NCBI RefSeq assembly: GCF_003325755.1
Contig: NZ_QORI02000011.1
Coordinates: forward strand, 33 to 64,032
Source of the DNA: Pseudomonas sp. SST3
GTDB lineage: Bacteria > Pseudomonadota > Gammaproteobacteria > Pseudomonadales > Pseudomonadaceae
Length of the DNA: 64,000 nucleotides
Direction of reading: 5' to 3'
In this document: one piece after another, positions 22,560 through 49,813 of the stretch
Layout of the letters: each line of letters starts with the position of its first letter
How positions within the stretch are numbered: position 1 is the stretch's first letter
The notes under the pieces: model-generated
Database searches by the model: none
Told to the model about the DNA's origin: nothing
The model's input: only the letters and a program-made list of their open reading frames with translations
Program-made: the position numbers and the translations under genes

Positions 22560-22560
22560 T

Positions 22561-26387: not shown

Positions 26388-26399
26388 TGTGATTCTTCC

Positions 26400-29290: not shown

Positions 29291-29640
29291 GGTTTACCAC
29301 TATCCAGCATCGCTGATGCGCGAATGCGGCGATTTTAGCCGCTAAATTTTTGGGTAATGGCTACCTCCCGGCCGGCACATGCTGCTCTGTCAGCCTGGCG
29401 TCAGCATCGGCAACTCAGCTCTGCTCAGAAGCGTTGACGCATGCCTAATGCCATCGGCAGCGACATCTGAGCGCCCTGAGCCAGTGACCGGGAAATCAAC
29501 CACTACACGATGCCGGGGGATGATAAAGGAAGGCGCTTCTGTAATGCGAAAAAGCCGCAGACCAGGTTTTGATCTGAGAGCGAAATTTGGCCTGGATCTG
29601 GTCAGGCCTTCTTGAACACCGCTCTCGATCAGATGCGGAG
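29291..29640. other. Intergenic, 350 bases, no gene seen
   Basis: Separates the methyltransferase start from the XRE gene on the same strand. Short frames here are not convincing. Expected to hold the promoter of the methyltransferase operon and possibly controller sites, but I found no clear operator. Confidence 0.3.
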
Positions 29641-29862
29641 CTACAGCTCTGACAACTGAGGCAGAAGGCAGGATGGATCGCAAGCGAGCTCGCTTGCAAT
29701 GCGATAGAGCTTCTCGACGGTGATGTTTACTTCGCCACGCTCGATTCGCCCCATATAGCTACGGTCCATACTGCAGGCCAGCGCTAGAGCATCCTGAGAA
29801 ATCCGACAGGCCTTTCTCTGCGTCCGGATGCGTTCCCCTAACGCCTTCGCCAACTTATCCAT
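29641..29862 (-). CDS. XRE-family HTH regulator, controller-protein-like
   Basis: 73 residues, a single helix-turn-helix domain: LGERIRTQRKACRISQDALA followed by RSYMGRIERGEVNITVEKL. Size and composition match C (controller) proteins of restriction systems. It lies directly upstream of the methyltransferase operon and is divergent from the 29967 operon, so it could control both. Confidence 0.75.
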   Translation of the reverse strand: MDKLAKALGERIRTQRKACRISQDALALACSMDRSYMGRIERGEVNITVEKLYRIASELACDPSCLLPQLSEL

Positions 29863-29966
29863 GACCGTCTCAATTCCACTTGAGGCGGCACTATCGTGTG
29901 TTTGCGGACGTAGGAGCCACGGATTATAATCCGCATTTCCTCTGCGTTAACTCTTCTGGTGCCTCA

Positions 29967-30554
29967 ATGAAATCGGCCTCGTTTACCTTCGACAGGCGTC
30001 TGTATGAGCTGCTTCAGGAGGAAGGGCGTTCAAGGTTCACGACGCGTGAACTGCGTGATGCCTATGCCAAGCGCCTGGATGGCATGACTTTCCGTATCGG
30101 TGATGTGCGCCGCTATGTGTATGAGCAGATCCGCCGAATGCTGCGCATGGGTTGGGTTGTGCTCGATGAAGAGCGCCGTTCGCGGGGACAGGTCTACCAC
30201 CTGCTGCCGATTCCGGCACATCTGCAATTGGAGCTGATCGACAACGGGTTCGAGAACAGCCATAAGACTGCTTGTGAGCCAGAGCAGGAGCCGTCAGCGT
30301 TCGATAATTCGGCGGTGCCGCAACCATCAGTCGATGCGGATCAGCACCTGGAGGCGCTCCTCAAGGAAATCAGGCTGGACTTCCTCGCATCGATGGGCGA
30401 GGCGGAGCGATACAAGCTGCTCCTCGATGATATGCCGCATCTCCGGGATAAGGTCGAAGGCGAGTACCTGGAAGCTAGAGACCGAAGCTCGCGCCTGCTG
30501 GGCCATCTTCGCGCCATCGAGAAGACACTCAAGACGCTTGCCTCCGCACGATGA
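29967..30554 (+). CDS. Hypothetical protein with winged-helix-like N-terminus
   Basis: 195 residues from ATG 29967 (MKSASFTFDRRLYELL). The first 90 residues, with FTTRELRDAYAKR, DVRRYVYEQIRRML and GWVVLDEERRSRGQVYHLL, look like a winged helix. The rest is a charged linker and a helical tail (LDDMPHLRDKVEGEYLEARD). It overlaps the downstream helicase by 4 bases (ATGA). Not recognised; likely a DNA-binding partner of that helicase. Confidence 0.6.
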   Translation: MKSASFTFDRRLYELLQEEGRSRFTTRELRDAYAKRLDGMTFRIGDVRRYVYEQIRRMLRMGWVVLDEERRSRGQVYHLLPIPAHLQLELIDNGFENSHKTACEPEQEPSAFDNSAVPQPSVDADQHLEALLKEIRLDFLASMGEAERYKLLLDDMPHLRDKVEGEYLEARDRSSRLLGHLRAIEKTLKTLASAR

Positions 30555-31951
30555 CCACACTGCTGCGAAACTGGCAACGCCGCTGCATCGACGCGGCACT
30601 GGAGCACTTTACTGCCACGCCGCACTTCTTCTGCCAGGCAACGCCGGGTGCCGGTAAGACGCGTATGGCGGCAGAGCTGGCCAGCAGGCTGCTTGAGCAG
30701 GACCGGATCGATCTGGTGCTCTGCTTCGCACCATCCTGCCAAGTTGTCGAGGGCTTTCGCTCGTCCTTTGCTGCGGTGCTCGGCAGACGCTTGGACGGCC
30801 AACTCGGCGCAGTTGGGGCGGCGTTCACCTATCAAGCCATGGAATACCGAGATGAGACGTTCTGGCGACTCCTCGATGACTACCGTGTGTTCGTGGTTTT
30901 CGACGAAATCCACCACTGCGCCGGCCACGATGTACTTCTGAGTAACGCCTGGGGCCAACAGATTCTTCAGCGGATACAGGACAGGGCAGCCTTCACCTTG
31001 GCCCTCTCCGGCACCCCATGGCGTTCGGACGACCGGGCCATTGCCCTGGCCCGCTACTCGACGCCCGAGGGGTACCTGATCTGCGACTACCGCTACGGAT
31101 TGAAAGAGGCCATTGCTGATGGTGTGTGCCGTTCCCCTCGCATTGTCCTGCTCGACAACCAGAAGGTGATACTTACCGAGGAGCTGGACACGGAGAGCAC
31201 TGTCAGGATGTTTCCCAGCATTGCCAAACTATTGGGGGAGTCCCCTGTCACCTACGAAGAGCTGTTGCGCCATGACGAGGTGATTGACCAGTTACTCGGT
31301 CTCGGGTGCAGCAAGCTGGATGAGCTTCGCCTGATCAAGCCTGATGCGGCAGGCTTAGTGGTTGCCACCGACATCGAGCACGCCCAGCAAATTGCCTTGG
31401 CCCTGGAAACCCTGGGTGAAGGTTGCCGCATCGTGACCAACAAAACCCCGGCTGCGCAGCAGGTTATCAATGCGTTCAGACACAGCGCCTGCCGTTGGAT
31501 TATCGCAGTTGGAATGATCAGCGAAGGCACGGACATTCCTCGACTCCAGGTGTGCTGCTACCTCAGTCGCATCCGCACTGAGCTGCATTACCGACAAGTG
31601 CTTGGGCGAGTGCTTCGGCGCACAGGCGAGCCCGATAATCAGGCGTGGCTATTCATGTTAGCGGAGCCGACACTGCAGTGCTTGGCAGAGAGAATTGCAG
31701 ATGATCTACCGGATGACCTGGCAGTGCTGAACGAGGTAGAGATGCCAGCCTCCACTTCAGGTTCAATATCTGGCTGGATTGGGGCTGCTGGTAATATCGA
31801 TGTCCTGGATGACAGTAATGGAAGTGGCATTGCGCAGGTAATTGGGGCAGGTGCTACATGCGCCTTATCCCTGGGGGGCTCTGCCGCTGAGCCAAACCAT
31901 CTGGTCAGCTTTTCCAAGCACTACCGGCAACAGTTGCTGGCTTGCTTTTGA
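30551..31951 (+). CDS. SF2 DEAD/DEAH-box helicase
   Basis: 466 residues. Motif I QATPGAGKT (29-37), motif II VFDEIHHCAGH, motif III LSGTPWRSD, motif V GMISEGTDIPRL, motif VI YRQVLGRVLRR: a complete SF2 helicase without extra domains. Operon with the winged-helix-like gene (ATGA overlap). Similar stand-alone helicases occur in phage-defence loci; here the role is inferred only. Confidence 0.8.
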   Translation: MTTLLRNWQRRCIDAALEHFTATPHFFCQATPGAGKTRMAAELASRLLEQDRIDLVLCFAPSCQVVEGFRSSFAAVLGRRLDGQLGAVGAAFTYQAMEYRDETFWRLLDDYRVFVVFDEIHHCAGHDVLLSNAWGQQILQRIQDRAAFTLALSGTPWRSDDRAIALARYSTPEGYLICDYRYGLKEAIADGVCRSPRIVLLDNQKVILTEELDTESTVRMFPSIAKLLGESPVTYEELLRHDEVIDQLLGLGCSKLDELRLIKPDAAGLVVATDIEHAQQIALALETLGEGCRIVTNKTPAAQQVINAFRHSACRWIIAVGMISEGTDIPRLQVCCYLSRIRTELHYRQVLGRVLRRTGEPDNQAWLFMLAEPTLQCLAERIADDLPDDLAVLNEVEMPASTSGSISGWIGAAGNIDVLDDSNGSGIAQVIGAGATCALSLGGSAAEPNHLVSFSKHYRQQLLACF

Positions 31952-32017
31952 TGCTTGTATGGAGGACTGAATTCAAGCGTCGGCAGACGTGGTTGACTGA
32001 ATCAGGAGATAGCCGCA

Positions 32018-32281
32018 TTGACCCTTTCTCACGAAAGAACCCGCAGCGTCATCAAGACCGAAGAGTTCCTGCGAGAGCTCGCCCGTAACACTGAGCTGCC
32101 TCAGGATATCCGCAGCTATGCGAAAAGCCTGCTCAGGCACTACCCGTCGGCCGACCAGATCCTCTCGTTGGGGCGCCTTGAAGAGTGCCTGGTGAGCGAT
32201 GCACCAGATGATGAATATCGACGGCGGGTGATCGCTTTTCATCAGCCGCTGTTCAGCTCGTCATTGGACTTCACGCGATAG
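32018..32281 (+). CDS. BPSL0761 family protein
   Basis: 87 residues from TTG 32018, preceded by AGGAG with 9-base spacing. Begins TLSHERTRSVIKTEEFLREL and contains YAKSLLRHYPSADQIL, the recognisable pattern of the BPSL0761 family. Function unknown; common on islands and plasmids of Burkholderia and Pseudomonas. Two bases before the next gene. Confidence 0.65.
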   Translation: MTLSHERTRSVIKTEEFLRELARNTELPQDIRSYAKSLLRHYPSADQILSLGRLEECLVSDAPDDEYRRRVIAFHQPLFSSSLDFTR

Positions 32282-32283
32282 AA

Positions 32284-32892
32284 ATGAGAGCCGCAATGTC
32301 CAGCACTGATTTTGCTCTGTCGGTATCCACCCGCATTGCGCAACGGATTAAGCGCTTACCCAAAGGGCAACCCTTCTGCATCGGCCGCTTTGCGGAGCTT
32401 GGAGCGCGTGGCGCCATATCCAAGGCACTAGCTCGGCTGGTCAGCCAAGGCGAACTTGAACGGGTGCATCGAGGAATTTACATGCGCCCGAAATCCAGTC
32501 GATACGTTGCACGGGTCCGCCCAAATGTATGGGAAGTAGTGAGCTTGATCGCTAGGCAGAACCGCCATGTTCTACAGATTCATGGCGCTCATGCGGTCAG
32601 GTTGTTTGGACTGAGCACCCAGATGCCGCTCATTCCGATCTATTACACCAGCGGACCCAGCCGATCATTTTTTATAGGTAAGGGTGAGGTCCGGTTGGTA
32701 CATGCGGCACCAATGGTCATGCAGCGTGCCGGGACCGAGGTAGGGACGGCTATCAGCGCACTATTTTATCTCGGTAAAGACGGCTCGACCCCGGAATGCA
32801 TTGCCGCGATCAAGAAGGTGCTCAGGCCAGAAGACCTAACCACATTAATGGCCTGCAAAATGCCGAAATGGATGCGCATGGCGTTGGAGTAG
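32284..32892 (+). CDS. DUF6088 family / AbiEi-antitoxin-like protein
   Basis: 202 residues. N-terminal winged helix (GRFAELGARGAISKALARLVSQGELERVHRG) and a domain with QIHGAHAVRLFGLSTQMPL and YYTSGPSR, the pattern of DUF6088 / AbiEi-type regulators. No AbiEii nucleotidyltransferase toxin follows, so this is either an orphan regulator or not part of a type IV toxin-antitoxin pair. ATG 32296 is an alternative start. Confidence 0.65.
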   Translation: MRAAMSSTDFALSVSTRIAQRIKRLPKGQPFCIGRFAELGARGAISKALARLVSQGELERVHRGIYMRPKSSRYVARVRPNVWEVVSLIARQNRHVLQIHGAHAVRLFGLSTQMPLIPIYYTSGPSRSFFIGKGEVRLVHAAPMVMQRAGTEVGTAISALFYLGKDGSTPECIAAIKKVLRPEDLTTLMACKMPKWMRMALE

Positions 32893-32994
32893 TCAGCGCG
32901 CATACACACCGTCAACACGCTTGCTCCTTAACGCTCTGTCAGGCAGATTTCCGTTGCTGGCCGAGTCCGACCAAGCGACATCGGCGGCATCCCT

Positions 32995-34149
32995 TCACCC
33001 CTTGACCAAACGGAGATGGGCACCTGATTTCCCACCAGAGTCGGATGGGTTAGCGCTCTGCCCCTTCAACACGTTCAACATCAATCCGAACGTCAATTCA
33101 TTGATCTCCTCAGGACTGATTGCCAGTTCTCCCGCGACGCCAGCTTTCCCAACCCCATCTGCACGTAACGCGGCGAAAATCTTCTCCAGGATCACTGACC
33201 GCTCATGAGCAATAGATTCCGGCTCTTCGGTGCGATAGCCCTCTTGAGCAATCTGAATACACAGCGTTCGGTAAGCCCACTCCGTGGAAAGCCCCAGGCT
33301 ATGAAGCCGGTAATTTAAGGCTGCCACAGAAACGGACCAGAGCTTCTTGTATTTGATTAGGCTTTTGATAGTGATCGAACGTGGAGCCATCGCTAGAACG
33401 CTTGCACGTGGCATTAGAAAAGCCGACGCAAAGGCATTCGCCTCACGCTCTAAATCAGGTCCTTGTGGGTGGGCATGCTGGTGCATAACCAAATGTCCTA
33501 ATTCATGAGCTGCGTCAAAGCGGCAACGCTCGGCCGACTTAAAGGTATTCAAGAACATAAAGGGGCGGCCGCCACTCCACATCGAGAACGCGTCGACCTC
33601 CTTTGCATCAATTGCAAGTGAGTAGACACGAACGCCTTTCGACTCAAGAAGCGCAATCATGTTCTTAACCGGCTGCTCACCTAAACCCCAGTGTGCCCTC
33701 AGCATCTCCGCAGCGGCCTCTGGCGCTTGGGCACTGCGTGATAGTGCCAGCTTATCGAGCGCCTCAAAATTCGTCAGTGCAGCGCGTTCGGACCCCAGGT
33801 CCGGAAGATCTGGCTCTGGCAAATCGAAACGTTGCTCGATCCAGTCATTCAGCAGGAGCGCAATTGCGCCTGCACCGAGAGCTGAATCCCTAAGGCCAGC
33901 AGTCATCTTTGAGAGCGACCGGAAACTGGCAACATCCGGCGTTGGCACCTCAGGATCATCACCAAAGAAAAACGCTTCGGGGAACCGAAGCGTTTTAGCG
34001 ATTTTTGCAAGGGTTCCAGGCTCAGGCTCCTGCGTGCCACTCTCGTAGCCGGAGACTGATCGCTCCGTTACTCCTATATGAGTGGCAAGCTCACGCTTTT
34101 TCATACCTCGCCGGCGACGGGCGAGCGCAAATCGTTGTGGATTAAACAT
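32995..34149 (-). CDS. XRE HTH plus ImmA/IrrE metallopeptidase
   Basis: 384 residues. Residues 1-65 are an XRE helix-turn-helix (ARRRRGMKKRELATHIGVTERSVSGYESG); the C-terminal two thirds hold the COG2856 ImmA/IrrE domain with HELGHLVMH (HExxH) and a downstream E in REANAFAS. Such proteins cleave a repressor to switch on mobile-element or stress genes. The gene pairs with the 34156 gene, whose stop lies 6 bases upstream. Confidence 0.82.
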   Translation of the reverse strand: MFNPQRFALARRRRGMKKRELATHIGVTERSVSGYESGTQEPEPGTLAKIAKTLRFPEAFFFGDDPEVPTPDVASFRSLSKMTAGLRDSALGAGAIALLLNDWIEQRFDLPEPDLPDLGSERAALTNFEALDKLALSRSAQAPEAAAEMLRAHWGLGEQPVKNMIALLESKGVRVYSLAIDAKEVDAFSMWSGGRPFMFLNTFKSAERCRFDAAHELGHLVMHQHAHPQGPDLEREANAFASAFLMPRASVLAMAPRSITIKSLIKYKKLWSVSVAALNYRLHSLGLSTEWAYRTLCIQIAQEGYRTEEPESIAHERSVILEKIFAALRADGVGKAGVAGELAISPEEINELTFGLMLNVLKGQSANPSDSGGKSGAHLRLVKG

Positions 34150-34155
34150 GATCTA

Positions 34156-34806
34156 TCACGAGCTTTTACGGCGAATTTCGATGTCGATATCCGGACCGCC
34201 TGGGGAGGTAACCTCAAAGAAATCATCATCAAGAGCAAGGGTGCCAAGCATGATGCGTTCAGACCAGAAATTGATCTTGCCGCCTTTACCCATTCCCGAT
34301 GGACGTGAGAGCTCGATGCGGATTTCCTTCTTCACCGTGTCGGTGTGGTGGAGCAGGATCCAGGTCTCATGAGGGCCTGATTCAGGCAGCTCCTCCGGAT
34401 CGGGCAGCAAGTCATCAAACATGTCGAACTGGCAGTTCCGCTCAACAGCATCAACTGTATTTTTACCCTTCCTGGATCGGCTGCTCGGCATCCCCAGCAG
34501 ATTTCCAACATAGCTATCTCCCGATGCGACAGCAATCGCGAGATTGAGCGCCGAGTGAACGGTAAGAGGGTAGTTCGACTGTTCATGCGCGACCCACCCT
34601 AGTGGGCGCAGCTGATCGCGCACCGCTCCTACCAACCAGCCCCACATTTCAAGGCCGGGAAAAATGCTGGGATGGTTAGGAGTCAGGCGAACCCGCTGTA
34701 GGTGAGCTTGATTGATAGCCTCACGCAGTGGCTCGCGCTCCAGACTCAACTGTTCAAGACGGGCGGCGATTTCATCCTGATCACTGAATACCTGGCAAGC
34801 CTGCAT
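34156..34806 (-). CDS. Hypothetical partner of the XRE-ImmA protein
   Basis: 216 residues, starting MQACQVFSDQDEIAARLEQL. Helical N-terminus, then GLEMWGWLVGAVRDQLRPLGW and a beta-rich C-terminal half (ETWILLHHTDTVKKEIRIEL). No known motif found. Directly upstream of the XRE-ImmA gene on the same strand, so the two are probably one functional pair; it might be a toxin or the ImmA target. Confidence 0.6.
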   Translation of the reverse strand: MQACQVFSDQDEIAARLEQLSLEREPLREAINQAHLQRVRLTPNHPSIFPGLEMWGWLVGAVRDQLRPLGWVAHEQSNYPLTVHSALNLAIAVASGDSYVGNLLGMPSSRSRKGKNTVDAVERNCQFDMFDDLLPDPEELPESGPHETWILLHHTDTVKKEIRIELSRPSGMGKGGKINFWSERIMLGTLALDDDFFEVTSPGGPDIDIEIRRKSS

Positions 34807-35139
34807 CTGAGGACTCCTAACACAACGGTGACTTCCGGTTATTCTTCCTCAAATGAGGTAAAAAAACAAGAAGCACACGTCGCGGAGGGAGACCGAGAGG
34901 ACGTTGCAGCATGCGTGTTGCCGCCTGTGCATTTTCCACCCACATGCCGGAATTTCATTGACCCAGTTTCGAGCTCCAAGCGAGTTGTAGAATTTCGCTT
35001 TCAGACTGCTGGGTTAGGGCAGAATAGCGTCGGCACCTGGGTTAAAAATGCACTGGCGATAACATTTGATGTTTGCGGCAGTACCGCCTCCCGTTCCGGA
35101 TTGGCACAGTAATAGACTTGATTCAAATTCGGAGGAAGC
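34807..35139. other. Intergenic, 333 bases, no gene seen
   Basis: Divergent promoter region between the XRE-ImmA pair and the small gene at 35140. Nothing else recognised. Confidence 0.3.
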
Positions 35140-35373
35140 ATGGGTATTTCGTATTACCTCGCATGTTTGGAGACCCGGCAATATGTCTGGGTTGGCAGGC
35201 TTGACCCACAGGGGGAGGTGCCGGCGGTGGACGTCGAAGGCTCCATCGCCATGTTCGCGCTGGAGAATCGGAACAAACCGTTGATCGTCGTTAGTGAAAG
35301 CCATCCGATCCTCGAAGAGGGAATGGAGTGGTCGCCGCCCGCAACGCAAGAAACGTGCAGCGGACAACCATGA
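35140..35373 (+). CDS. Small hypothetical protein
   Basis: 77 residues with a strong GGAGG at 6-base spacing from ATG 35140. Starts MGISYYLACLETRQYVWVGRL and reads as a compact beta-rich protein, then PLIVVSESHPILEEG. Function unknown. The last 15 residues look unstructured, so the 3' end may be altered. Confidence 0.5.
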   Translation: MGISYYLACLETRQYVWVGRLDPQGEVPAVDVEGSIAMFALENRNKPLIVVSESHPILEEGMEWSPPATQETCSGQP

Positions 35374-35539
35374 CGAACCACCGCCAACCGCATCTGTCGA
35401 AGACCTGCCATATCCACCGCCGGCATGGCACACCAGACCATGCTTGAGCTAACGCAGCGGGGCTGGAAAACTGGCAAAAGGCGCTCCGTTGCGCAGTGCC
35501 CTCGGTTACTCTTTTTAATACGAAGATGAGGTCTGCCCG

Positions 35540-35821
35540 GTGACAGAGAGCCATAAAGACACCATTTGCGATGTATGCGCTACCAGTACGAGGGTGCCGG
35601 GGTACGGCGAGCAGTTCGGGACGCTTCAGGCGCTCTGGGGCTATGGCGCAGGGCATGATGGCGAACGCTATCGAGTCAATCTATGCGAAAGCTGCTTTTT
35701 CGCGGCACTAGCGTTTTTGAAGCAGGAGCGCCGCACGCAGAATCTGTTCAGCGATGAGCAGCCCTGCGAGGAGCGCCCATTCGGACTAGTCGCCCGCGAT
35801 GACTACTTTGGTGATTCGTAG
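35540..35821 (+). CDS. Small zinc-ribbon-like hypothetical protein
   Basis: 93 residues from GTG 35540. Contains CDVCATS near the start and CESCFFAALAFLKQE later, two CxxC pairs that could bind one zinc. No function recognised. Isolated plus-strand gene between two other small cargo genes. Confidence 0.5.
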   Translation: MTESHKDTICDVCATSTRVPGYGEQFGTLQALWGYGAGHDGERYRVNLCESCFFAALAFLKQERRTQNLFSDEQPCEERPFGLVARDDYFGDS

Positions 35822-35928
35822 CCATATCTCAGAGATGAGGTTATTGGCTCGCCAGCATCGAACTCAGGCCATGTCTGCACGACTTCTCGGTACAATGGCG
35901 TCACCGGCAATCGCTCTAGGGATCTCGC

Positions 35929-36201
35929 TTGACTGACGCAAAACTCACTGAAGTCGAGATGCGGCGCGCGCTTGGCCTAGACCTCGCGCCTTCGAAATCG
36001 AAGCAGCCCATACCCAAACAGCACTCTACCGTCACACTCGTTGAATTGAGCGTGCGTAAGAACGGTGGTTCGCCATTCCGCTTCGAGCACCGCTCCCGTT
36101 CCATCAGTACTCTCGCTGCCCAACTCGAGGCCGAGAAAACAGCACGGGAGAAAGGGTATGAGGTCTGGGTCGTGTTGGATATCAGGCAGGTTTCATCATA
36201 G
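35929..36201 (+). CDS. Small hypothetical protein
   Basis: 90 residues from TTG 35929. The N-terminal part is basic, with KSKQPIPKQH; the C-terminal part has TLAAQLEAEKTAREKGYEVWVVLDIRQ, an amphipathic helix then a strand. I do not recognise it. It converges on ptxE. Confidence 0.45.
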   Translation: MTDAKLTEVEMRRALGLDLAPSKSKQPIPKQHSTVTLVELSVRKNGGSPFRFEHRSRSISTLAAQLEAEKTAREKGYEVWVVLDIRQVSS

Positions 36202-36264
36202 AGCCGCAACAGCCGTCAGTCAGTCCACGCCTCGCTGATTGCTCTGGGGCAGTGAACGCTTGAG

Positions 36265-40721
<4,457 letters not shown>

Positions 40722-41300
40722 TTGATCACCTTTCGCAATATTGCTGGCCGCACAATTGCGGTTCGCGATGCAAAGGGTAGAAATTCCTTGTTAACGCACT
40801 GCTTCTAAATGATGACATTTCGATGAATGCTTCGAATCTGCCGTAGCGGGGCGGCAAGCGAAGCCGTGGAAGAACGGGCGCAACGTAGCGTCTTTCTTCA
40901 CGCGGGATACAGGAGGCTTTGATTGATACTGCTGCGGATTCGCTACAGTAACGTTGGGCCAGAACGTAATGCCATCCAAGCAAGAGAGCGCACACTAGCG
41001 GACTATAGGAGACATTCTACTCTTGCCCGTCGATTGACCCAGGCCGTTATGTGGCTGGTCGAAACCTTCAGGTGCCGCCCAACTAGATGTCTGTTGTCGC
41101 GCCCAGCTTAATGCTAGCGCAAGCCGCTTATTCTTCTAGCAACGCCGCGCTAGTCTTGAATGATGTTTCCTCAGTAGACTGATCATGCGCGGTATCTGCT
41201 TCGATGCCTTGAAGAGAACGCCTTCGGCTAAATGTCATATGACCAGCGCTTTTTACACTTCGGTTATTACTCCTTTTTTCAGCGAGATTGGGAGGGAAGG
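40722..41300. other. Intergenic, 579 bases: ptx promoter region, otherwise no gene
   Basis: The 110 bases nearest ptxA hold the Pho-box candidate. The remainder (40,850-41,300) has no convincing gene on either strand and may be decayed mobile DNA. Confidence 0.35.
40812..40829 (-). promoter_or_regulatory. Candidate Pho box upstream of ptxA
   Basis: On the minus strand CATTCAT-CGAA-ATGTCAT resembles two CTGTCAT half-sites 11 bases apart (5/7 and 6/7 matches), about 90 bases before ptxA. A good -10 was not found. Phosphate-starvation control by PhoB is expected for phosphite genes. Confidence 0.4.
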
Positions 41301-41699
41301 ATGATTGCATATACAATGGTCGGAACGACCGATCTGAACCGTTCAGCGCGTTTCTACGAACCTATATTCTCAGCAATGGGGTTGGAAATTTCGTGGAGGG
41401 ACGAGCGATCGGTTGCTTGGGGAGTTCCGGGCAACCGGACCCCCACCTTTCACGCTTGTCTTCCTTATAACCAAGAGGAAGCACGCCCCGGCAATGGAAC
41501 CATGACGGCGTTACTCACGGAGAGCCCAGCGCTAATAGGGCGACTCTTTGAACTCGCGCTTGAGAACGGAGGTACTGACGAAGGCTCTCCTGGCCCCAGA
41601 CCTGAGTACGGAACGGGATTCTACGCAGCCTATGTTCGTGATCCTGACGGCAACAAGTTGGCCTTTGTCTATTTCGACGATAACCAGTGTGGCGGTTAG
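41301..41699 (+). CDS. VOC (glyoxalase-fold) family protein
   Basis: 132 residues from ATG 41301, 5 bases after GGAGG. VOC signature: TMVGTTDLNRSARFYEPIF at the start and YVRDPDGNKLAFVYF near the end, with H in FHACL as possible metal ligand. Single-domain member; substrate unknown, often a glyoxalase-like or antibiotic-binding role. Confidence 0.78.
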   Translation: MIAYTMVGTTDLNRSARFYEPIFSAMGLEISWRDERSVAWGVPGNRTPTFHACLPYNQEEARPGNGTMTALLTESPALIGRLFELALENGGTDEGSPGPRPEYGTGFYAAYVRDPDGNKLAFVYFDDNQCGG

Positions 41700-42110
41700 C
41701 GTTACCACTAAGTCTTGGTCGCCTCTATATAGATGAATCATTTATATGAACAAGCGACCAAACAAACATGTATTAGCTACTCAAGATAGCAATCCGATAT
41801 ATCCTGCACTTAGTGACCAAATCGTCTTAGCTCCTTTTGACCCCTTCGGCGATATTCGCTGGCATGCCCCGGCTGGCGTCACCCCGGTAAATCTCATGCC
41901 GTTTCTGGTTCGGGGTCGACTCGGAACGCTTCGTTAGCTGAACGATGCCACTTGATACGCTACCGGCCAGTACGAGGAGTTACAGTACTAGACGACCGCT
42001 TTCGGCCAAAAGCGGTCGGTCAAAGTCTTATCCTGAGAGGGCGGGCATCTCATGTGGCATGAGGCGATCCAAGCTATGCGGTGAGCCTGCTGGGCAAGGA
42101 TGGCTGCCCA
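41700..42110. other. Intergenic, 411 bases, hairpin but no gene
   Basis: Contains an inverted repeat gaccgctt...aagcggtc (41994-42018) of the gccgaaagc type repeated in many Pseudomonas mobile elements; a related copy is at 45,010-45,075. No gene seen. Confidence 0.35.
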
Positions 42111-42461
42111 TCACAGCAATTCGATGCCGAAGCGGCGCATTGCTAGAGCAAACAGGACGAAACATAGGCACGTTGCAAATGCGTAACCCGCCAGTGCGAG
42201 CCAGAAGCCGAAGCGAGACATTAGGAGCGGGAACATCAACAGCGCCGGTAGCGTGGGGATCACATACCAGAAGGTGTACCAGGCATGGTTGGCGATCTTC
42301 TGTCCCGGCTGATGCTCGATGTGCAGCCAGATCAAGGTCAGCACCGTAACTATGGGCAGGGCGGCGACGATACCGCCAATACGGTCGCCATGCTTGGCCG
42401 CTTCAGATACCAAGACCACCATCAATGCAGTGATCAGGTACTTTGTCACTATCCAGGTCAT
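42111..42461 (-). CDS. DUF3147 family membrane protein
   Basis: 116 residues, four membrane helices. KYLITALMVVLVSEAAKHGDRIGG and ALPIVTVLTLIWLHIE are the DUF3147 pattern. Often near metal-resistance genes; role unknown. Co-directional with csoR-like gene, 29 bases downstream. Confidence 0.75.
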   Translation of the reverse strand: MTWIVTKYLITALMVVLVSEAAKHGDRIGGIVAALPIVTVLTLIWLHIEHQPGQKIANHAWYTFWYVIPTLPALLMFPLLMSRFGFWLALAGYAFATCLCFVLFALAMRRFGIELL

Positions 42462-42490
42462 GACGCGCTCCGCGGTGCTGCGAAAGAAGA

Positions 42491-42778
42491 TCAGAGGTAC
42501 TTGGTGATCTGTTTGAAGTTGCTCAGCGCGGTGATGTCCCCCTGTTCAGCGGCCGCGAGCGCATGCTCCAGACAGTGATCGATGTGGTCCTGGATCAAAG
42601 TGCGCTTGGCCTGACAGATCGCTTTTTCTACTGCGTGTAGCTGCTGGGCAAGGTCCACGCAGGGGCGACCGGTCTCGATCATGCCGACAATGCTGCGCAG
42701 GTGGCCTTCGGCACGCTTCAACCTTTTGATGATATCGCTATGACTTTGGTGCTGATGGGCGTGTTCTTGATCGCTCAT
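42491..42778 (-). CDS. CsoR/RcnR-family metal-responsive repressor
   Basis: 95 residues from ATG 42778. All-helical DUF156 repressor; GRPCVDLAQQLHAVEKAI and DHIDHCLEHAL carry C40, H65 and C69, the CsoR-type C-H-C ligand set (RcnR would have H at the last place). A His-rich tail (HAHQHQSHSD) may add ligands, so copper(I), nickel or cobalt are possible effectors. Divergent from the histidine-rich gene at 42894, with the operator palindrome between. Confidence 0.85.
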   Translation of the reverse strand: MSDQEHAHQHQSHSDIIKRLKRAEGHLRSIVGMIETGRPCVDLAQQLHAVEKAICQAKRTLIQDHIDHCLEHALAAAEQGDITALSNFKQITKYL

Positions 42779-42817
42779 GCCTTGAGTCCCATGCCTCGAT
42801 GACTTACGCTTCGATCC

Positions 42818-42836
42818 TATCCCCCCGGGGGGGATA
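42818..42836. promoter_or_regulatory. CsoR/RcnR-type operator palindrome
   Basis: TAT-CCCCCC-G-GGGGGG-ATA, a perfect 19-bp palindrome with C/G tracts flanked by TAT/ATA. G-tract palindromes of this kind are the recognised sites of CsoR/RcnR repressors. It is 40 bases from the repressor start and 58 bases from the divergent gene, so it can control both directions. Confidence 0.8.
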
Positions 42837-42893
42837 TGGCAAACCGGCCGTTGTCGTCGGGCGGCCAGCCGAATCTGCAATCGAAGACACATC

Positions 42894-43253
42894 ATGCTCA
42901 GTAAACCGGTCAGCGCTCAGTTAACGTTTGTCCTTGCCCTCGTCATGCTAATGGCATGGGCCGGGCATAGCGCCGCGCTTGGCCCTGGGGTGAGCCAAGG
43001 TGGGTGGAACGGCGGGGACCATGCTCATGCTCATTCCCAAAGCACGGGTATTTCGGTCTGTGCCAGATGCGCGGATCACTACCACTCCACGCTTACCGCC
43101 GACCACGTGCACGAAACGCCATACCTGAGTACGCTTCTCACCGTCAGTACGCTGCCAGAGCGTCCGCAGCCGATAGAAGCCACGCGCTACGTCATCCCTC
43201 CCAGTCCGATCTTCCTGATCGAGCGGCCACCACGCCCAAGATTCGCACTCTGA
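42894..43253 (+). CDS. Exported histidine-rich protein (CopL/DUF2946-like)
   Basis: 119 residues with a signal peptide (QLTFVLALVMLMAWAGHSAA). The middle is rich in His and Cys: GGDHAHAHSQSTG, VCARCADHYHSTLTADHVH. This resembles small CopL/DUF2946-type periplasmic metal-binding proteins. First gene after the operator; probably binds metal in the periplasm. Confidence 0.7.
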   Translation: MLSKPVSAQLTFVLALVMLMAWAGHSAALGPGVSQGGWNGGDHAHAHSQSTGISVCARCADHYHSTLTADHVHETPYLSTLLTVSTLPERPQPIEATRYVIPPSPIFLIERPPRPRFAL

Positions 43254-43299
43254 CAACGGCCGCTATGCGGCCAATACCACTGTCACGTAGGACTCAACT

Positions 43300-44037
43300 A
43301 TGCATTCGCTATCCATGTGCGATATGGGCGCATTTTCCGCGCGCCCAAACCGCTCGCTAATACTGCTGCTCTTGTTCACCGCATTGCTATTTCTCGGCAT
43401 GCCTGACGCGCTGGCCCACGCTGTTGCCGAGGGCGACAAGGGCTTTATCCAGGAAAGCTCCGGGGTGATGGTGCTGCCGTTCATCTACATGGGCGCCAAG
43501 CACATGATCACCGGCTACGACCATCTGTTGTTTCTCTTTGGGGTGATCTTCTTTCTCTACCGCCTGAAAGACGTGGGGCTCTACGTCACCCTGTTCGCCG
43601 TGGGCCACACCGTGACGCTGCTGCTCGGTGTATTGGCGGAAATCACCATCAGCTCCTATGTGATCGACGCCATCATCGGTTTCTCGGTGGTGTACAAGGC
43701 CCTGGATAACCTGGGCGCCTTCCAGCGCTGGTTCGGCCACCAGCCGAACACCAAAGCGGCCACGTTGATTTTCGGTTTGCTGCATGGCTTCGGCCTGGCA
43801 ACCAAAATCCAGGAGTACGAGATCTCCGCGGATGGCCTGGTCGCCAACCTAATCGCCTTCAACGTCGGAGTCGAAATTGGCCAGCTACTGGCGCTGAGCG
43901 CCATTTTGATCGTCATGGGCTACTGGCGACGAACCGCCAGCTTCTGGCGCCATGCCTACACCGCTAACGTCGCCATGATGAGCGCCGGTTTCCTCTTGAT
44001 GGGTTACCAGCTCACCGGCCTGATCGTCTCTCAGTAA
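43300..44037 (+). CDS. HupE/UreJ-family metal transporter
   Basis: 245 residues from ATG 43300. Signature KHMITGYDHLLFLFGV at the first core helix, then GHTVTLLLG and FGLLHGFGLA, the HupE/UreJ_2 pattern; seven membrane helices. HupE proteins carry nickel or cobalt; the function of this subtype in repressor-controlled cassettes is not established. Followed 12 bases later by the anchor protein. Confidence 0.8.
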   Translation: MHSLSMCDMGAFSARPNRSLILLLLFTALLFLGMPDALAHAVAEGDKGFIQESSGVMVLPFIYMGAKHMITGYDHLLFLFGVIFFLYRLKDVGLYVTLFAVGHTVTLLLGVLAEITISSYVIDAIIGFSVVYKALDNLGAFQRWFGHQPNTKAATLIFGLLHGFGLATKIQEYEISADGLVANLIAFNVGVEIGQLLALSAILIVMGYWRRTASFWRHAYTANVAMMSAGFLLMGYQLTGLIVSQ

Positions 44038-44049
44038 GGAATTCTCAGC

Positions 44050-44712
44050 ATGTTCAATACCAAGCTTCCAACCCAGTGTGAATTGCCAACCAGCCGCCAG
44101 CTGCTGCGCTCCACTGTGATCGCCGTGGGTGTTGCCGCAGCGTTACTGGTCACCGTAGTGATGCCTTCTGAATATGCCATCGACCCCACGGGCGTCGGCC
44201 GTGTACTTGGCCTGACTCAGATGGGTGAAATGAAAGAAATTCTCGCCGAAGAAGCGGCTGCGGATGCAGCTGTCCCGCCAGCAGCGGCCCCGGTCGTACA
44301 AGCCCCCGCGTCTAGTCAGGTGGCGCCTCAGGAGCAAGTTGCGGCAGCAACTGTGGCTGAGCCGGTAGCAGAGCCGCAGCCCGCCCTGAAGTCCGATGAA
44401 GTGACTGTCACGCTGAAGCCGGGCGAGGCCAGTGAAATTAAGCTGGAGATGCTGGACAAGGCCACGGTCAGCTACGAGTGGGCAACCGATGGCGTTCCGG
44501 TCAATCACGACACCCATGGCGAGCCCTATAACGGCCCGAAGGGCTATTACCACAGCTACAGCAAGGCCAAGCAGGTCAAAGGTGATAAAGGCGAATTCAC
44601 TGCCATTTTCGACGGCACCCACGGCTGGTTCTGGCGAAACCGTAGCAACCGTGACGTGACGATTACGCTCAAGACCAAGGGTGAGTACCTGAGCGTCAAA
44701 CGCGTTATCTAA
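44050..44712 (+). CDS. Transmembrane anchor protein with periplasmic domain
   Basis: 220 residues. One N-terminal membrane helix (TVIAVGVAAALLVTVVMPSEY), an Ala/Pro/Glu-rich linker, and a C-terminal beta domain with VNHDTHGEPYNGPKGYYHSYSK and DGTHGWFWRNRSNRDVTITL. His-containing loops could bind metal. Regularly found after HupE/UreJ_2 genes; function unknown. Confidence 0.75.
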   Translation: MFNTKLPTQCELPTSRQLLRSTVIAVGVAAALLVTVVMPSEYAIDPTGVGRVLGLTQMGEMKEILAEEAAADAAVPPAAAPVVQAPASSQVAPQEQVAAATVAEPVAEPQPALKSDEVTVTLKPGEASEIKLEMLDKATVSYEWATDGVPVNHDTHGEPYNGPKGYYHSYSKAKQVKGDKGEFTAIFDGTHGWFWRNRSNRDVTITLKTKGEYLSVKRVI

Positions 44713-44718
44713 GAGAAA

Positions 44719-44750
44719 TAGCCCCAGCGTCATGGGCGCCGGGGCTTTTA
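44719..44750 (+). terminator. Rho-independent terminator
   Basis: GCCCC...GGGGC stem (44721-44745) followed by TTTT, 8 bases after the anchor gene. The small lipoprotein gene lies beyond, so it may be partly read through or separately expressed. Confidence 0.65.
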
Positions 44751-44780
44751 CATCCCTGATCGATATTGAAGGAATACATC

Positions 44781-44909
44781 ATGACGAATTCAATTACGCT
44801 GAGCCGCTCCCTGCTGCTGGTTTGTTTACTAGGTCTGCTGTCGGCATGTGGCGGCAGCGAGCCGGAGACGCAAGCTGAAGTCGAAAGTCACGGTCATTCT
44901 CACGACTAA
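44781..44909 (+). CDS. Small histidine-tailed lipoprotein
   Basis: 42 residues from ATG 44781. Signal and lipobox LLVCLLGLLSAC|GGSEPE, then a short acidic stretch ending ESHGHSHD. A miniature lipoprotein whose mature part is almost only a His-Asp metal-binding tail. Fits the metal cassette by position. Confidence 0.7.
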   Translation: MTNSITLSRSLLLVCLLGLLSACGGSEPETQAEVESHGHSHD

Positions 44910-44925
44910 GAGGCGGAAAGTTGTC

Positions 44926-44966
44926 TTGTTACGTGCAATGACTCGCTAATCGCTTGCACGTAACAA
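44926..44966. repeat. Perfect 13-bp inverted repeat
   Basis: TTGTTACGTGCAA (44926-44938) and TTGCACGTAACAA (44954-44966) with a 15-base spacer, just past the lipoprotein. Could be a terminator lacking a T run or a protein-binding site. TAACAATT at its edge recalls integron attC ends, but the remaining attC core is not seen. Confidence 0.6.
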
Positions 44967-45325
44967 TTGGTAAGTTTTAGGCGCCGGCCACATCATATCT
45001 AAGATCTGTTAAGTGGCTGCTTTTGGCCGGTAGTTACCGTTGTGAAACACGGCTTTCGGCCAGTAGCAGCCGCTCAATTGTGTCTATAGAACCTTTAGCG
45101 ATTCAGTTACCAAACCAAAACTTTCAGGCAAGGCCTGCAGAGATTGTCTTGGGGCTAAGAAAACAACATATACCTCAGACCAAACTTGACTTTCTGTTTA
45201 TCTCACTCCACCCACCTTGGCAAATCATGAGATAATATCGCTCTTCCACCCTATAAAATCGATAAAAAACCCTGATGCGACGGGTTGCTTTTTCTATTTT
45301 CAAATTTTGATAGCCGGGCTTGTAA
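44967..45325. other. Intergenic, about 360 bases, no gene seen
   Basis: Contains decayed repeats of the ggctttcggccagtagc type at 45,010-45,075 and then an AT-rich stretch that probably holds the promoter of the nuclease gene. Confidence 0.3.
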
Positions 45326-46963
45326 ATGAAAATCCTCGAACCACAGATCGACAAGCTGTTTGATGACAACCCAATTCTTCGACAACCTTTTCTCCATGTT
45401 TACAATCATTTCTGCCAGGTTGCCACCTTCCAATTCATTCAAGAAAAGCAAGCACCTCATAGCTTCGCAATTCCGTATACATTTGTATTTGAGCGCATGA
45501 ACGACTTTAGTCCTCAAAGCCCTGAATCATGCGATGATTTTTTGCGCAAGCTAAACCCTGATGACTTTAAAAATTTATTCGCTTGCGCAAACCTCAATAT
45601 AGTCATCCCATTTATTCGTAGCAAAATATATAGATTCACTCGCGAAAGCAGCGAAAAGTCAACGATCGACTACGCTGATGAAATTACACTCAAACATGAA
45701 ATCAATGACATCATTGTAACGCATTTATCTCTACCAGTTATTTCAAACCAAGCTCACGATTCTAGACCTTGGCTCAAGAGCGTTGTTAATCGGCTAAGAA
45801 CCAACAAGCCCGTAAATCCCACATTTTATTTTGATTACATTTCCGAGCAGTACAAAGCATCTGAAAATGCATTCATTGAAGCAGATATTATTCCACCTGA
45901 TTTCTATACGCAGATTGGATTTTCTTCTGCCGATGCCTTTAAAAAAATCAGGAATGCTTTTATCTGCATAGGGCAAATCTATAATGACATCACGTTCATA
46001 GTTTACAAATACCTGGAAGTCAATGAACTTAAAGACTCAGGGGATGGAGATCATCATTTACAAGGCCTTGGCATGGCCAGGCTGGGTGCCGCCGAGCTGA
46101 AATTTCTAGTTCAAAAGCTCACCGGGGTGGCTGAGTCAGACTACGATAAATTTTCTGAGTTTTTCTTCTGCGGCGAGGGAAAAAATGGCAGCCTAAGCTT
46201 AAAATTCATGCCGCCATTCTGGAGCATTTCGGATGACGTATACTTCTGCCCGGCCTTAGTTCCAACCCTACTGGGCACGAGAAATCTTTTGATCTCCATA
46301 CTAATAGATGATGATAAAAATACTAAATACAACTATGACGGATTGATATCTCACTTTTTCGAACCTGAACTCTTGAGAAGGGCTCAAAGGCATTTCGAAA
46401 GCAATGGCTTTTATACTTATTTAGAATGTGACTTTACTGGGGGCGAGATTGATTTATTGGTTTTTTGCAATAAATCCAATACCGTGATGACCGTCCAGGC
46501 AAAAGCCACTTTATACCCTGAGTCAGCTCGCATGGTGCGACGTTTGGACGATAGAATTCGGGAAGCAGTTGAGCAGACCAAACGATTTGATAAACTCGAA
46601 CCCAAGGAGAAAACTAGTTTATTCAAAAAATCTTTTCTCAGCTTGGATGATTCGGCGCAAATCAATCATATTCGCGCAGTTTTAACAAATTCCAGTTTCG
46701 GAAGCACTTTTAGCTGGCAATTACTAGAAAGCAACAAAATAACCCCAATAAACTGCAATCTTCTTAAAAACGTATTGCCTTGCTGCAATGTTTTAACTGA
46801 ACTACCAGAACAAATTGAAGCATTTATTGCAAAGATAAAATCCGAGATTGAGATCACTGAGGAACAAAAAGTTTTCAGCCTCCCTGGCCATACGATTTAT
46901 CAACGACACGTTGAAACACATCGCATGAAGAACCTTTACGACGCCAAGTATTGGGGCGAGTGA
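45326..46963 (+). CDS. Orphan Mrr-like PD-(D/E)xK nuclease, candidate defence protein
   Basis: 545 residues, markedly AT-rich. The first 370 residues show no known motif. Near 375-400, ECDFTGGEIDLLVFC and TVMTVQAKATL form an EID...QAK core, the QxK variant of the PD-(D/E)xK nuclease found in Mrr-type proteins. A long helical C-terminus follows. No partner gene adjoins it. Its base composition differs from both host and neighbouring cargo, so it was probably acquired separately. Confidence 0.6.
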   Translation: MKILEPQIDKLFDDNPILRQPFLHVYNHFCQVATFQFIQEKQAPHSFAIPYTFVFERMNDFSPQSPESCDDFLRKLNPDDFKNLFACANLNIVIPFIRSKIYRFTRESSEKSTIDYADEITLKHEINDIIVTHLSLPVISNQAHDSRPWLKSVVNRLRTNKPVNPTFYFDYISEQYKASENAFIEADIIPPDFYTQIGFSSADAFKKIRNAFICIGQIYNDITFIVYKYLEVNELKDSGDGDHHLQGLGMARLGAAELKFLVQKLTGVAESDYDKFSEFFFCGEGKNGSLSLKFMPPFWSISDDVYFCPALVPTLLGTRNLLISILIDDDKNTKYNYDGLISHFFEPELLRRAQRHFESNGFYTYLECDFTGGEIDLLVFCNKSNTVMTVQAKATLYPESARMVRRLDDRIREAVEQTKRFDKLEPKEKTSLFKKSFLSLDDSAQINHIRAVLTNSSFGSTFSWQLLESNKITPINCNLLKNVLPCCNVLTELPEQIEAFIAKIKSEIEITEEQKVFSLPGHTIYQRHVETHRMKNLYDAKYWGE

Positions 46964-47209
46964 ATAGCCCCCAGTTTCATAGATGCTTTCGAGCCTCAGC
47001 GAAACCGGCCCAGCCTTGGCGTGACCAGCAGTTTCTGGCCGGTTTCGGCCTGTCGCCACCGGCAGCTATGGATTAAATCCGGCCCGTCGTGACTGGCAAC
47101 AGCCGAACCATCGTGGACCACTGAGACCTAGATGAGTGGAAGCTTCGAATCGTCACCGCAATCAGCTACTGCCGTTTTGTTGTAATCAAAGGGGAGACTT
47201 CTTCTTTCT

Positions 47210-47620
47210 ATGCAGAGACTTTTCGGACTGAGTGGTGGTGGCCGTCCGCCACGCTCCGGGCGACTATCCAGCCGGCAAACAGGGCGATGTGTTCGCGGTC
47301 GAGTTCAGGGTAGCGCGCATGTCCTGCCTTGGCCTGAGCGACGGTCCGGTGTTCCAGTACAAAGAGCCTTTTCGTTCCAGGTCGCGACCGATGATCAGGC
47401 TGAGACGGACCACTTGTGAACACGATCATTAACAATGGGGCCAGGTGAGCGCGTATGGCTGGTACAGGGACGAGTGGGTGTTTCGTGGTAGATCTCCCTG
47501 CATATTCTGACGGCTGCAATACCCAGCCCTGATCGAGCGGCAACAACGCGTTCGTTCGAGGCCATTGATGGCATGACGAAGATCGACTTTGCCGCGATCG
47601 AGGCTGCGCTGAAGGCTTGA
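47210..47620 (+). pseudogene. Degraded VOC-family (PhnB / 3-dmu-9_3-mt-like) gene
   Basis: Pieces of one protein occur in order in shifting frames: GDYPAGKQGDVFAVEF and LGLSDGPVFQYKEP, then AFSFQVATDDQAETD, and at the end MTKIDFAAIEAALKA. This is the 3-demethylubiquinone-methyltransferase-like VOC family. At least two frameshifts and stops show it is dead. Confidence 0.65.
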
Positions 47621-48050
47621 TCTTCAACGTCTGAATCCAGCCCCAATGACTGAGCCTGCCTGACACCACATGCGATTCTGAGGCTGCTGCGGCCCCTCCG
47701 CGTGACTCGCAGAGTTCCGTGCTGTGATCCACCTCTGCTGCGACTCGGTCAAGCTAAATGCAATCGTTGGTCAGGAGCTTCTATAAAACGCAGGCATAAT
47801 CTTGTTATGATATCGCTGGCGTCAAACTCGGCAGATGATACGGCCTTATAGATTTACTTAAGAGTGTATGTCGTATATTAAATACGTGGCCTAAATGCTG
47901 TGCTGTGCTTTGCTTCGGATTGTTCCTGTGTCCGATTTTGGTAGTGTCTAACTATCTCAATCCTTCGCAAGTGGTGCGGGATGTTGCAAGGTGGGCGATA
48001 TTTTTATAGTAAATTGGGTTTGTAAATATTTTAATTGGAAGCTAGTGTTT
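47621..48050. other. AT-rich region before the replacement ttcA
   Basis: 430 bases with no convincing gene. The base composition falls sharply after 47,760. TTGCAA (47984-47989) and TATAGT (48005-48010) could be promoter hexamers for the island ttcA, though the 15-base spacer is short. Confidence 0.35.
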
Positions 48051-48944
48051 ATGATGATGGGCGAACAAGCATCTCAGATTAATAAAGCTGCGGAACTTCG
48101 TCGTAAAAAGCTGCGCGGCAATGTGGGCAAGGCTGTTGTAGATTATGCAATGATCGAAGATGGCGACAAAATTATGGCCTGCGTAAGTGGTGGCAAAGAT
48201 TCATTCGTTATGCTTGACGCTTTGCTGCACTTGCAGAGAGTTGCGCAAATAAAATTCAGTGTTGTGGCGGTTAATCTTGATCAGAAGCAACCTGGCTTTC
48301 CGGAGCATATCTTGCCTGAGTTTTTCGAGGCTAAAGGGATTGATTACTATATAATTGACAAGGATACTTATTCCGTTGTCAAGAGTAAGATCCCGGAGGG
48401 TAAGACTACTTGTTCTCTTTGCTCTAGACTCAGAAGGGGCACGCTTTATAGTTTTGCTGAGGAAATTGGGGCTACTAAATTGGCACTCGGTCATCATATG
48501 GATGACATGGTTGAAACTTTGTTTCTGAACATGTTCTTCCAGGCGCAAATGAAAGGGATGCCTCCTAAGCTTCTTAGCGATGACAAGAGAAATATAGTTA
48601 TCCGGCCGCTCGCCTACTGTCGCGAGAAAGATATAGCAAAGGTCGCTGCCGATAGCGCATATCCAATCATTCCGTGCAATCTCTGCGGCTCGCAAGAGAA
48701 TTTGCAGAGGAAAAAAATCAAGTCGATGATTGCGGAGTGGGATTCGGTAAATCCTGGCTGCGTAGAAAACATCTTTCACAGCTTACAAAACGTAAGTCCA
48801 TCCCAGTTAGCTGATCGTAGTCTCTTCAATTTTATAGATCTATCCATTGATAGGTCGGATGCCCGACCGCCCTACGAATTCGAAGCAGCCGAGGTTTCAT
48901 CATCCAGCGTTGAAGGCCGGATTGATGTCGTTCGGATTTTGTAA
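48051..48944 (+). CDS. ttcA: Complete TtcA homologue carried by the island
   Basis: 297 residues from ATG 48051, with GGAAG 8 bases upstream. PP-loop SGGKDS intact, Fe-S cysteines in [11 protein letters not shown] and PCNLCGSQ, and GHHMDD also present. About three fifths of the residues match the interrupted host copy by eye, and codon use is far less GC-rich, so it was imported rather than duplicated. Predicted to thiolate tRNA C32 and to restore the function lost at the insertion site. The C-terminus extends past the usual end by a variable tail. Confidence 0.88.
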
Positions 48945-49111
48945 AGGTTCAGGTGATTTTTCGGGGGGGGGAGAGGGTGTTTAGAGGCCAAGAAGACGCA
49001 AAATTTACTTTTTCGCATTTTTCTGTAAAGCCAGCTTTCTATTTAATTCATTTAAAATCAACAAGTTGCGATTATTCTGATGCTGTCCAGTTATGTTTTC
49101 TTAAGCTATAA

Positions 49112-49117
49112 GGGAAG
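49112..49117 (+). other. Right attachment core (attR, GGGAAG)
   Basis: GGGAAG is preceded by AAGCTATAA (element) and followed by GATAGCTACACC (ttcA). One mismatch to the left core GGCAAG. TATAA next to it mirrors TTATA at the left end. Confidence 0.75.
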
Positions 49118-49813
49118 GATAGCTACACCATGCTCGACGTGCTGCTGTACCTGCAAAAGGTCGCGCCAATCAAGTTCGAGATCGTCGCGGTGAACATGGA
49201 CCAGAAGCAACCTGGCTTCCCCGAGCATGTGCTGCCGGAATACCTCAAGTCCATCGGCGTCCCGTACCACATCGTCGAAAAAGACACCTATTCGGTCGTC
49301 AAAGAAAAGATCCCGGAAGGCAAGACCACCTGTTCGCTGTGCTCGCGTCTGCGGCGCGGCACCCTCTATACCTTCGCCGACGAGATCGGCGCGACCAAGA
49401 TGGCGCTCGGTCACCATCGCGACGACATCCTTGAGACCTTCTTCTTGAACATGTTTTATGGCGGGACGCTGAAGGCGATGCCGCCCAAGCTGCTCTCCGA
49501 TGACGGCCGCAACGTGGTAATCCGGCCGCTGGCCTATTGCAGCGAGGCGGACATCGAAGCCTATTCGCAGATGAAGGAGTTTCCGATCATCCCGTGCAAC
49601 CTCTGTGGTTCGCAGGAGAACCTACAGCGACAGGTTGTCAAGGAAATGCTGCAGGAGTGGGAGCGCAAGTCGCCGGGCCGCGTCGAGATCATGTTCCGTG
49701 CCCTGCAGAACGTGGTGCCGTCGCAGTTGGCCGATCGGAGTCTGTTTGACTTCACCAGCCTGCGTATCGACGACAGCGCTACGCCACGCTTCGTCGATGT
49801 TATGAGCCTGTAA
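49118..49813 (+). pseudogene. ttcA: ttcA 3' fragment
   Basis: Resumes host TtcA at D-S-Y-T-M of the PP-loop and continues 231 residues to the normal end (FVDVMSL), keeping both cysteine motifs (TCSLC and PCNLC). An open frame from ATG 49130 could be translated but lacks the ATP-binding loop, so it should be inactive. Confidence 0.92.

Follow-up and report, generated by a model that had tools for sequence, protein, structure and literature searches.

A GInt-type mobile element in Pseudomonas sp. SST3 breaks the host tRNA-thiolation gene ttcA at its PP loop and carries a long-kept complete ttcA that most likely restores TtcA activity, a reading to which we give a probability of about 85%. The window analyzed here is a stretch of 64,000 nucleotides (contig NZ_QORI02000011.1), in which host ttcA is split within its PP-loop codons and the two halves lie about 32 kb apart. 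The sequences show that the element, which has a ginABCD-like operon, inserts specifically at the DNA for Ser-Gly-Gly-Lys/Asp-Ser, mostly that of ttcA, and thereby destroys the gene. They also show that it carries a complete ttcA of another lineage, and that this gene and the recombinase genes have long remained together, in hosts from both the gammaproteobacteria and the deltaproteobacteria. This copy most likely supplies the lost TtcA activity, so that landing would cost the host little; the strict association, the conservation and the purifying selection described below all point to such a replacement. Deletion of the element would leave a ttcA mutant, because the intact gene then sits on the element, and keeping the element would be favored. 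The available part of PMC6082896 reports peroxide hypersensitivity and weaker virulence in flies for a ttcA deletion of P. aeruginosa.

Interruption of host ttcA and ends of the element

The two host pieces and the ends of the element are located as follows.

17090..17218, + strand: host ttcA 5' piece, 43 codons, MGNLSV...CLSGGK, then TTA and a TAA stop
17213..17218, + strand: attL hexamer GGCAAG (Gly-Lys)
17219..49111, no strand assigned: mobile element, 31,893 bp, imperfect inverted ends TTATAACC... and ...AAGCTATAA, junctions compared across 21 elements
49100..49111, + strand: right terminus of the element, CTTAAGCTATAA
49112..49117, + strand: attR hexamer GGGAAG (Gly-Lys, codons differing from attL)
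49112..49813, + strand: host ttcA 3' piece, from GGGAAG/GATAGC to the stop, with an in-frame TAA as the preceding codon

The left-end bases TTATAACC put a stop behind the host codons ...VCLSGGK. Because the cut lies within the PP-loop ATP-binding motif SGGKDS, neither host piece should work. Equivalent 5' pieces adjoin IntA in relatives of the element.

Inverted ends and hexamers were found in 21/21 elements with both junctions, as for the imperfect att repeats of GInts, and attL and attR hexamers are GGN-AAR (Gly-Lys) in all of them; the search pattern already demanded Gly-Lys codons, and the 21 matches lie exactly at the host junction. L026/L067 is outside this count because its contigs break at the junctions, and the attR hexamer of L052 was matched in only one of the junction scans. 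The two hexamers differ in 12 of the 21 elements, always synonymously, and a 6-nt stagger of the exchange is inferred from these junctions. In the SE model, as given in the accessible text of PMC10214605, the hexamer on the left belongs to the present host, whereas the one on the right was brought along from the site where the element last resided. The 12 differing pairs, all Gly-Lys, fit this fingerprint and footprint, a pattern that the same text gives as common to Tn554-type elements too (PMC10214605). Read by that model, the synonymous differences between Gly-Lys hexamers suggest that the element moves from one PP-loop gene to the next, and the attR hexamer of the window is read as the fingerprint of a previous donor site.

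The carried ttcA

48051..48944, + strand: complete element-borne ttcA (putative rescue gene), 297 aa, just inside the right end

The first-pass annotation had described a full TtcA with PP loop and Fe-S cysteines inside the right boundary, AT-rich and distinct from the host copy. This observation holds. The product scores 439.6 bits with NCBIfam model NF007972 (cut-off 272) and has SGGKDS, CSLC and PCNLC. Its G+C content is 0.451 (0.473 at third codon positions) against 0.585 (0.816) for the host piece, and it shares 69% identity (153/221 aa) with the host 3' piece. The reading frame is open from 47952, with an ATG at 48051. On the coding strand upstream of the gene, a consensus scan gave no promoter-like site, and promoter and terminator scans around it gave site numbers about equal to those of shuffled sequences.

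Recombinase operon and class of the element

17374..18621, + strand: IntA/GinA-like tyrosine recombinase, 415 aa; R232, H347, R350 and Y391 invariant in 33 aligned proteins
18618..20270, + strand: second recombinase, GinB-like, 550 aa; R, R-H and Y invariant in 13 relatives
20233..22559, + strand: third recombinase-fold gene, GinC-like, about 780 aa in relatives; window copy out of frame near 21.4 kb
22468..22971, + strand: small fourth gene, GinD-like; start uncertain

A four-gene operon with overlapping or adjoining genes on the same strand is located at the left end of the element in 13/13 loci compared. Measured from stop to stop, its products are about 415 (IntA), 549-575, 761-801 and 139-195 aa long. 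What we take to be the catalytic residues of these recombinases follows papers on such proteins. On this assignment the second protein keeps R234, R402, H403 and Y433 at all 13 loci; its match to NF041502 is 77.6 bits, under the model cut-off of 350. The third protein keeps R536 and Y568 at the 13 loci, and the stretch searched contains no invariant first Arg at the usual distance, R306 being the sole invariant Arg upstream, 227 residues from the His-x-x-Arg box. The frame break in the third gene of the window may mean that this element is immobile, or may be a sequencing error. Intact copies of the gene exist, since the frame is open in L012, which is 99.95% identical to the window over this part.

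GInts are described, in the portion of PMC5385486 available, with a four-gene operon in which the third tyrosine-recombinase-type protein is without the first Arg and the fourth protein is small. The SE order is intA-tfp-intB-srap, with a non-catalytic Tfp as second protein (PMC10214605, in part), and differs from the gene order of the window element. Assignment to the SE class was rejected: the second gene keeps R, R-H and Y, while the third is the one that lacks the first Arg. We have therefore filed the element as GInt-type, a provisional assignment by gene order and by the defect of the third protein as described for GInts. The left-end operon, imperfect terminal repeats, presumed 6-nt staggered exchange and narrow site choice are further likenesses to GInts in that source (PMC5385486).

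The remaining cargo includes phosphite/phosphonate genes at 36265-40721 (LysR regulator, dehydrogenase, ABC transporter), annotated as ptxD-phnEDC on a P. aeruginosa plasmid element with which a 4.7-kb stretch is shared at 99.8%. A MmeI-like restriction-modification gene, helicase genes and a T5orf172/GIY-YIG-type gene at 23075-31951 are likely a defense cluster. Between the cargo and the carried ttcA, at 45326-46963, lies an AT-rich ORF of 545 aa with no Pfam or NCBIfam match.

Survey of relatives

A peptide-pattern scan derived from the 33-protein IntA alignment, run on one genome for each of 84,980 species, gave 35 loci; a scan of viral contigs with the same alignment gave no relative. In 22 of the 35 loci the element is in ttcA at the same codon (L009-L028, L030, L042; IntA identity 45% or more), and in the other 13 it is outside ttcA (IntA identity 35-40%). 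A complete additional TtcA is found in 18 of the 22 genomes with an interrupted ttcA, either beside the 3' piece of the host gene or immediately downstream of the recombinase operon. The other four (L014, L016, L017, L020) are metagenome-assembled and show the 5' piece only, with no 3' piece or complete ttcA found; measured from the start of IntA, their contigs extend for 23.5, 25.8, 14.2 and 6.2 kb and probably stop before the right end of the element is reached. For L026, whose assembly is interrupted at the junctions, both pieces of ttcA (5' and 3') lie at contig ends. All 13 genomes with IntA relatives at other sites have a single TtcA.

For a second sample, 398 genomes of Pseudomonadaceae were taken from a larger group, with each species represented once. 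Ten of them have three TtcA matches, which represent a split ttcA and a complete copy. Three of these are new (G182, G288, G227), so the pattern scan was not exhaustive; IntA was confirmed in each, and their elements span about 28, 106 and 63 kb, respectively. In 12 genomes with two matches, the second is weak or, in G292, an equal host-type copy. Judged by the match of best E-value, 394 of the 398 genomes have a full-length TtcA, so that no genome outside the metagenome bins has a broken ttcA alone. The exceptions are G261 and G281 (taken as the L014 and L016 bins), G295 (73% complete, a fragment) and G005 (71% complete, no match). G281, taken as the L016 genome, is listed as 98% complete, yet a complete ttcA was not found in it.

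In total, the family has 26 members inserted in ttcA (22 from the scan, three new ones and the window), of which 22 have a complete ttcA and four are the metagenome assemblies whose right ends were not found. The expectation that a ttcA homologue would always lie at the distal end was borne out for its presence in these 22 elements and not for its position: the carried gene is at the right end in 17 and directly behind the recombinase operon in 5. In these five, which we call operon-type, ttcA forms the fifth gene of the operon and its frame overlaps the fourth gene (L027, L024). Insertions in ttcA without a ttcA of their own, named beforehand as evidence against the idea, were not met within the family outside the four metagenome assemblies; the Rac prophage, for which no complete ttcA of its own is described, also inserts in ttcA but leaves the gene unbroken (PMC4632033, as far as its available text goes).

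Other insertion sites

On the P. aeruginosa megaplasmid pPA942-IMP45 the element is in the PP-loop codons of a PAPS-reductase-family gene (L074, about 2624 and 38332; L075; L097), and the IntA of this plasmid is annotated in pieces. On a second P. aeruginosa megaplasmid, pCA98YufeZhao-cau, which is typed as conjugative, the right end of the element was found at the corresponding position. The element might thus travel on conjugative plasmids. The empty site on pBM908 reads AWSGGK/DSSVTL and is annotated as PAPS-reductase family. Plasmid records matching the 3' part of the gene number 113, and those matching over most of it 103. These insertions argue that the target is the DNA of the motif and not ttcA as such.

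The gene interrupted in Halothiobacillus (L019 / L054) encodes a divergent TtcA-like PP-loop protein that shares 31% identity with the TtcA carried on the element. Its piece of 194 aa scores 165.5 bits, under the TtcA cut-off of 272, and the gene may have another function. Nine of the 13 elements outside ttcA (L031-L034, L036-L040; Vibrio, Photobacterium, Psychromonas, Shewanella and Aliagarivorans, each with a single TtcA) lie directly behind the stop of nth. They leave nth whole (9/9 match endonuclease III models).

Phylogeny, co-divergence and selection

When compared with 31 sampled host copies, the island TtcAs form one clade (20/20 rows, one of them from a plasmid; support 99/94). A wider tree of 156 rows contained 50 of these 51 labelled sequences, the long-branched Halothiobacillus host piece being dropped, and 106 of the 108 database proteins P0133-P0240, those under 270 aa being excluded. 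In this tree the island rows are not one clade (4 changes). A clade of 122 rows holds all 20 of them, along with 7 named proteins that look chromosomal and many without labels; the Halomonas and Halothiobacillus rows are separated there from the other island rows. The claim of a single capture of the island TtcA was dropped, because the one-clade result held with 51 rows and not with 156. For several database TtcAs the longest contig has the same size as for IntA matches (25,995, 30,894, 42,257, 47,467 and 95,212 bases), and these coincidences suggest that many of the database TtcAs are probably island copies too. Five closely alike island-like TtcAs from Vibrio and Pseudoalteromonas (P0221, P0224, P0225, P0227, P0228; two from V. 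ishigakensis) are perhaps further mobile ttcA copies.

IntA and TtcA distances are correlated: the Mantel r is 0.93 for 22 elements, two of them with partial IntAs, and 0.88 for the 12 elements left after near-copies were collapsed, with 0/5000 permutations as high. One branch (100/99) parts the 26 ttcA-inserting IntAs from the 13 other IntAs, and the five operon-type elements form a separate clade (100/100). Ten pairs of island ttcA genes were compared for selection; dN/dS is 0.04-0.08 in 8 of the 9 computable pairs and 0.22 in the pair L067/L068.

Serine codons at the cut

The first Ser of the PP loop is encoded by TCN in 20/20 host sites lying on the contig and by AGY in 21/22 island copies. 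The second is TCN in 22/22 island copies and AGY in 18/22 hosts, the four hosts with TCN being L054, L086, L093 and L096. As a rule, then, at least one of the two Ser codons sets the island allele apart from the usual target, and since Ser codons differ on both sides of the cut the island copy is probably a poor target itself. Selected self-immunity by recoded Ser codons was considered and dropped, because the sister TtcA of Photobacterium and Vibrio has the same codons and because 4 of 22 hosts have TCN at the second Ser; we keep only the statement that the allele differs from the usual target. The chromosomal ttcA genes of Photobacterium, some Vibrio and Psychromonas have Ser codons of the island type. 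The differences may therefore be inherited, the element having simply taken up an allele that lacks the site. The chromosomal TtcA type of these bacteria (L057-L062, L066) is sister to the island copies and may be of mobile origin.

Alternative explanations

A stronger form of our reading makes the carried ttcA integral to the element and gives it the role of an addiction device. Aimed at catalytic-loop codons that hosts cannot easily change, the recombinases would kill the host enzyme, and the element would supply the only working allele, one that they do not recognize. We put this forward tentatively, as something possible and short of an even chance.

If the carried ttcA were an ordinary passenger, it would derive from one pick-up at a former ttcA site and have no role in the tolerance of insertion. 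The varied cargo of GInts (PMC5385486, available part) agrees with this idea, as does the insertion into the PAPS-reductase-family gene, which the carried ttcA is not able to replace. A passenger would not be expected to be present in 22 of the 26 ttcA-inserted elements (four right ends not found) with an extra TtcA in none of the 13 relatives elsewhere, nor to diverge along with IntA under purifying selection and to lie within the operon in one clade. The other cargo is only partly common even to the window and the plasmid copy of the element. We consider the passenger explanation improbable.

It is also quite improbable that the island TtcA is a variant with another specificity or regulation that changes host translation or the stress response, in the manner of Rac. 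In favor of this idea, the island TtcA is no more than 65-69% identical to the host copies of Pseudomonas and Stutzerimonas, and excision of Rac alters TtcA and fitness with carbenicillin (PMC4632033, in part). On the other side, the PP loop is present in 22/22 island TtcAs and the cysteine motifs in 21/22; the island copy of L067 is without one of the four cysteines needed in P. aeruginosa TtcA, as stated in the accessible text of PMC6082896. Like the window protein, those of L063 (425.2 bits) and L068 (418.1 bits) score well above the cut-off of the TtcA equivalog model.

An assembly or binning artefact, to which the splitting of several relatives over contigs might point, can be dismissed, because the 5' piece, IntA, the complete ttcA and the 3' piece stand in this order in the window, on one contig each in G182 and G227 and on two contigs in G288.

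Comparison with known systems

The idea that no such strategy had been described for ttcA stands among the literature matches listed, none of which is a self-rescuing island at ttcA; most subscription papers and supplementary tables lie outside that search. The principle of self-rescuing insertion is already in print, for a recA island (PMC4405046) and for Tn6283 in bcp (PMC5991714), both sources being available in part. The recA mobile element (RME) of Vibrio cholerae S24 likewise sits in a housekeeping gene, is 32.8 kb long with short inverted repeats, and pairs an integrase at one end with a full but divergent version of the interrupted gene at the opposite end; this version was shown to work in E. 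coli (PMC4405046). It differs from the present family in that its target is recA and one island was analyzed; a thyA insert of C. difficile is mentioned in the same text (PMC4405046). By comparison, a complete and presumably working homologue of the broken gene is on 22 of our 26 elements, the right ends of the other four not having been found. Tn6283 / SE-6283 likewise breaks a host gene, bcp, and encodes a protein of the same kind, a peroxidase with 54.8% identity (PMC5991714). Its insertion into E. coli was obtained in mating experiments, while compensation was only suggested by the authors, as partial, with the RME named as a parallel (PMC5991714).

Rac of E. coli likewise inserts in ttcA; it is a prophage that alters only four N-terminal TtcA residues and leaves ttcA unbroken, and the excerpts available give it no second complete ttcA (PMC4632033). 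For GInts, insertion is probably not fully inactivating (gene ends, an outward promoter), and the available text describes no carried replacement gene, unlike the element in ttcA on both counts (PMC5385486).

The first-pass annotation had compared the element to those that restore tRNA genes. Some islands restore the 3' end of tRNA genes and so repair the damage to their target. Such islands rebuild the end of the target, whereas the ttcA element leaves its target broken and would rely on an entire foreign gene in its place. What we regard as new is a long-lived GInt-type lineage with a fixed, co-evolving putative rescue gene for a tRNA-modification enzyme.

Implications

Many integrative elements avoid harm to their hosts by landing at gene ends or in tRNA genes. 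In contrast, the present family hits a conserved catalytic motif, which it destroys, and has long carried a probable replacement gene. One recombinase family has two groups, one behind nth without a rescue gene and one in ttcA with it, which makes the evolution of the strategy testable. A housekeeping tRNA-modification gene may in this way be replaced by a foreign one without homologous recombination, and this can mislead annotation and phylogeny. If the addiction reading is true and transposition is of the copy-out type, leaving no empty site, hardly any insertion could be undone, and the element in ttcA would offer a simple addiction model open to testing.
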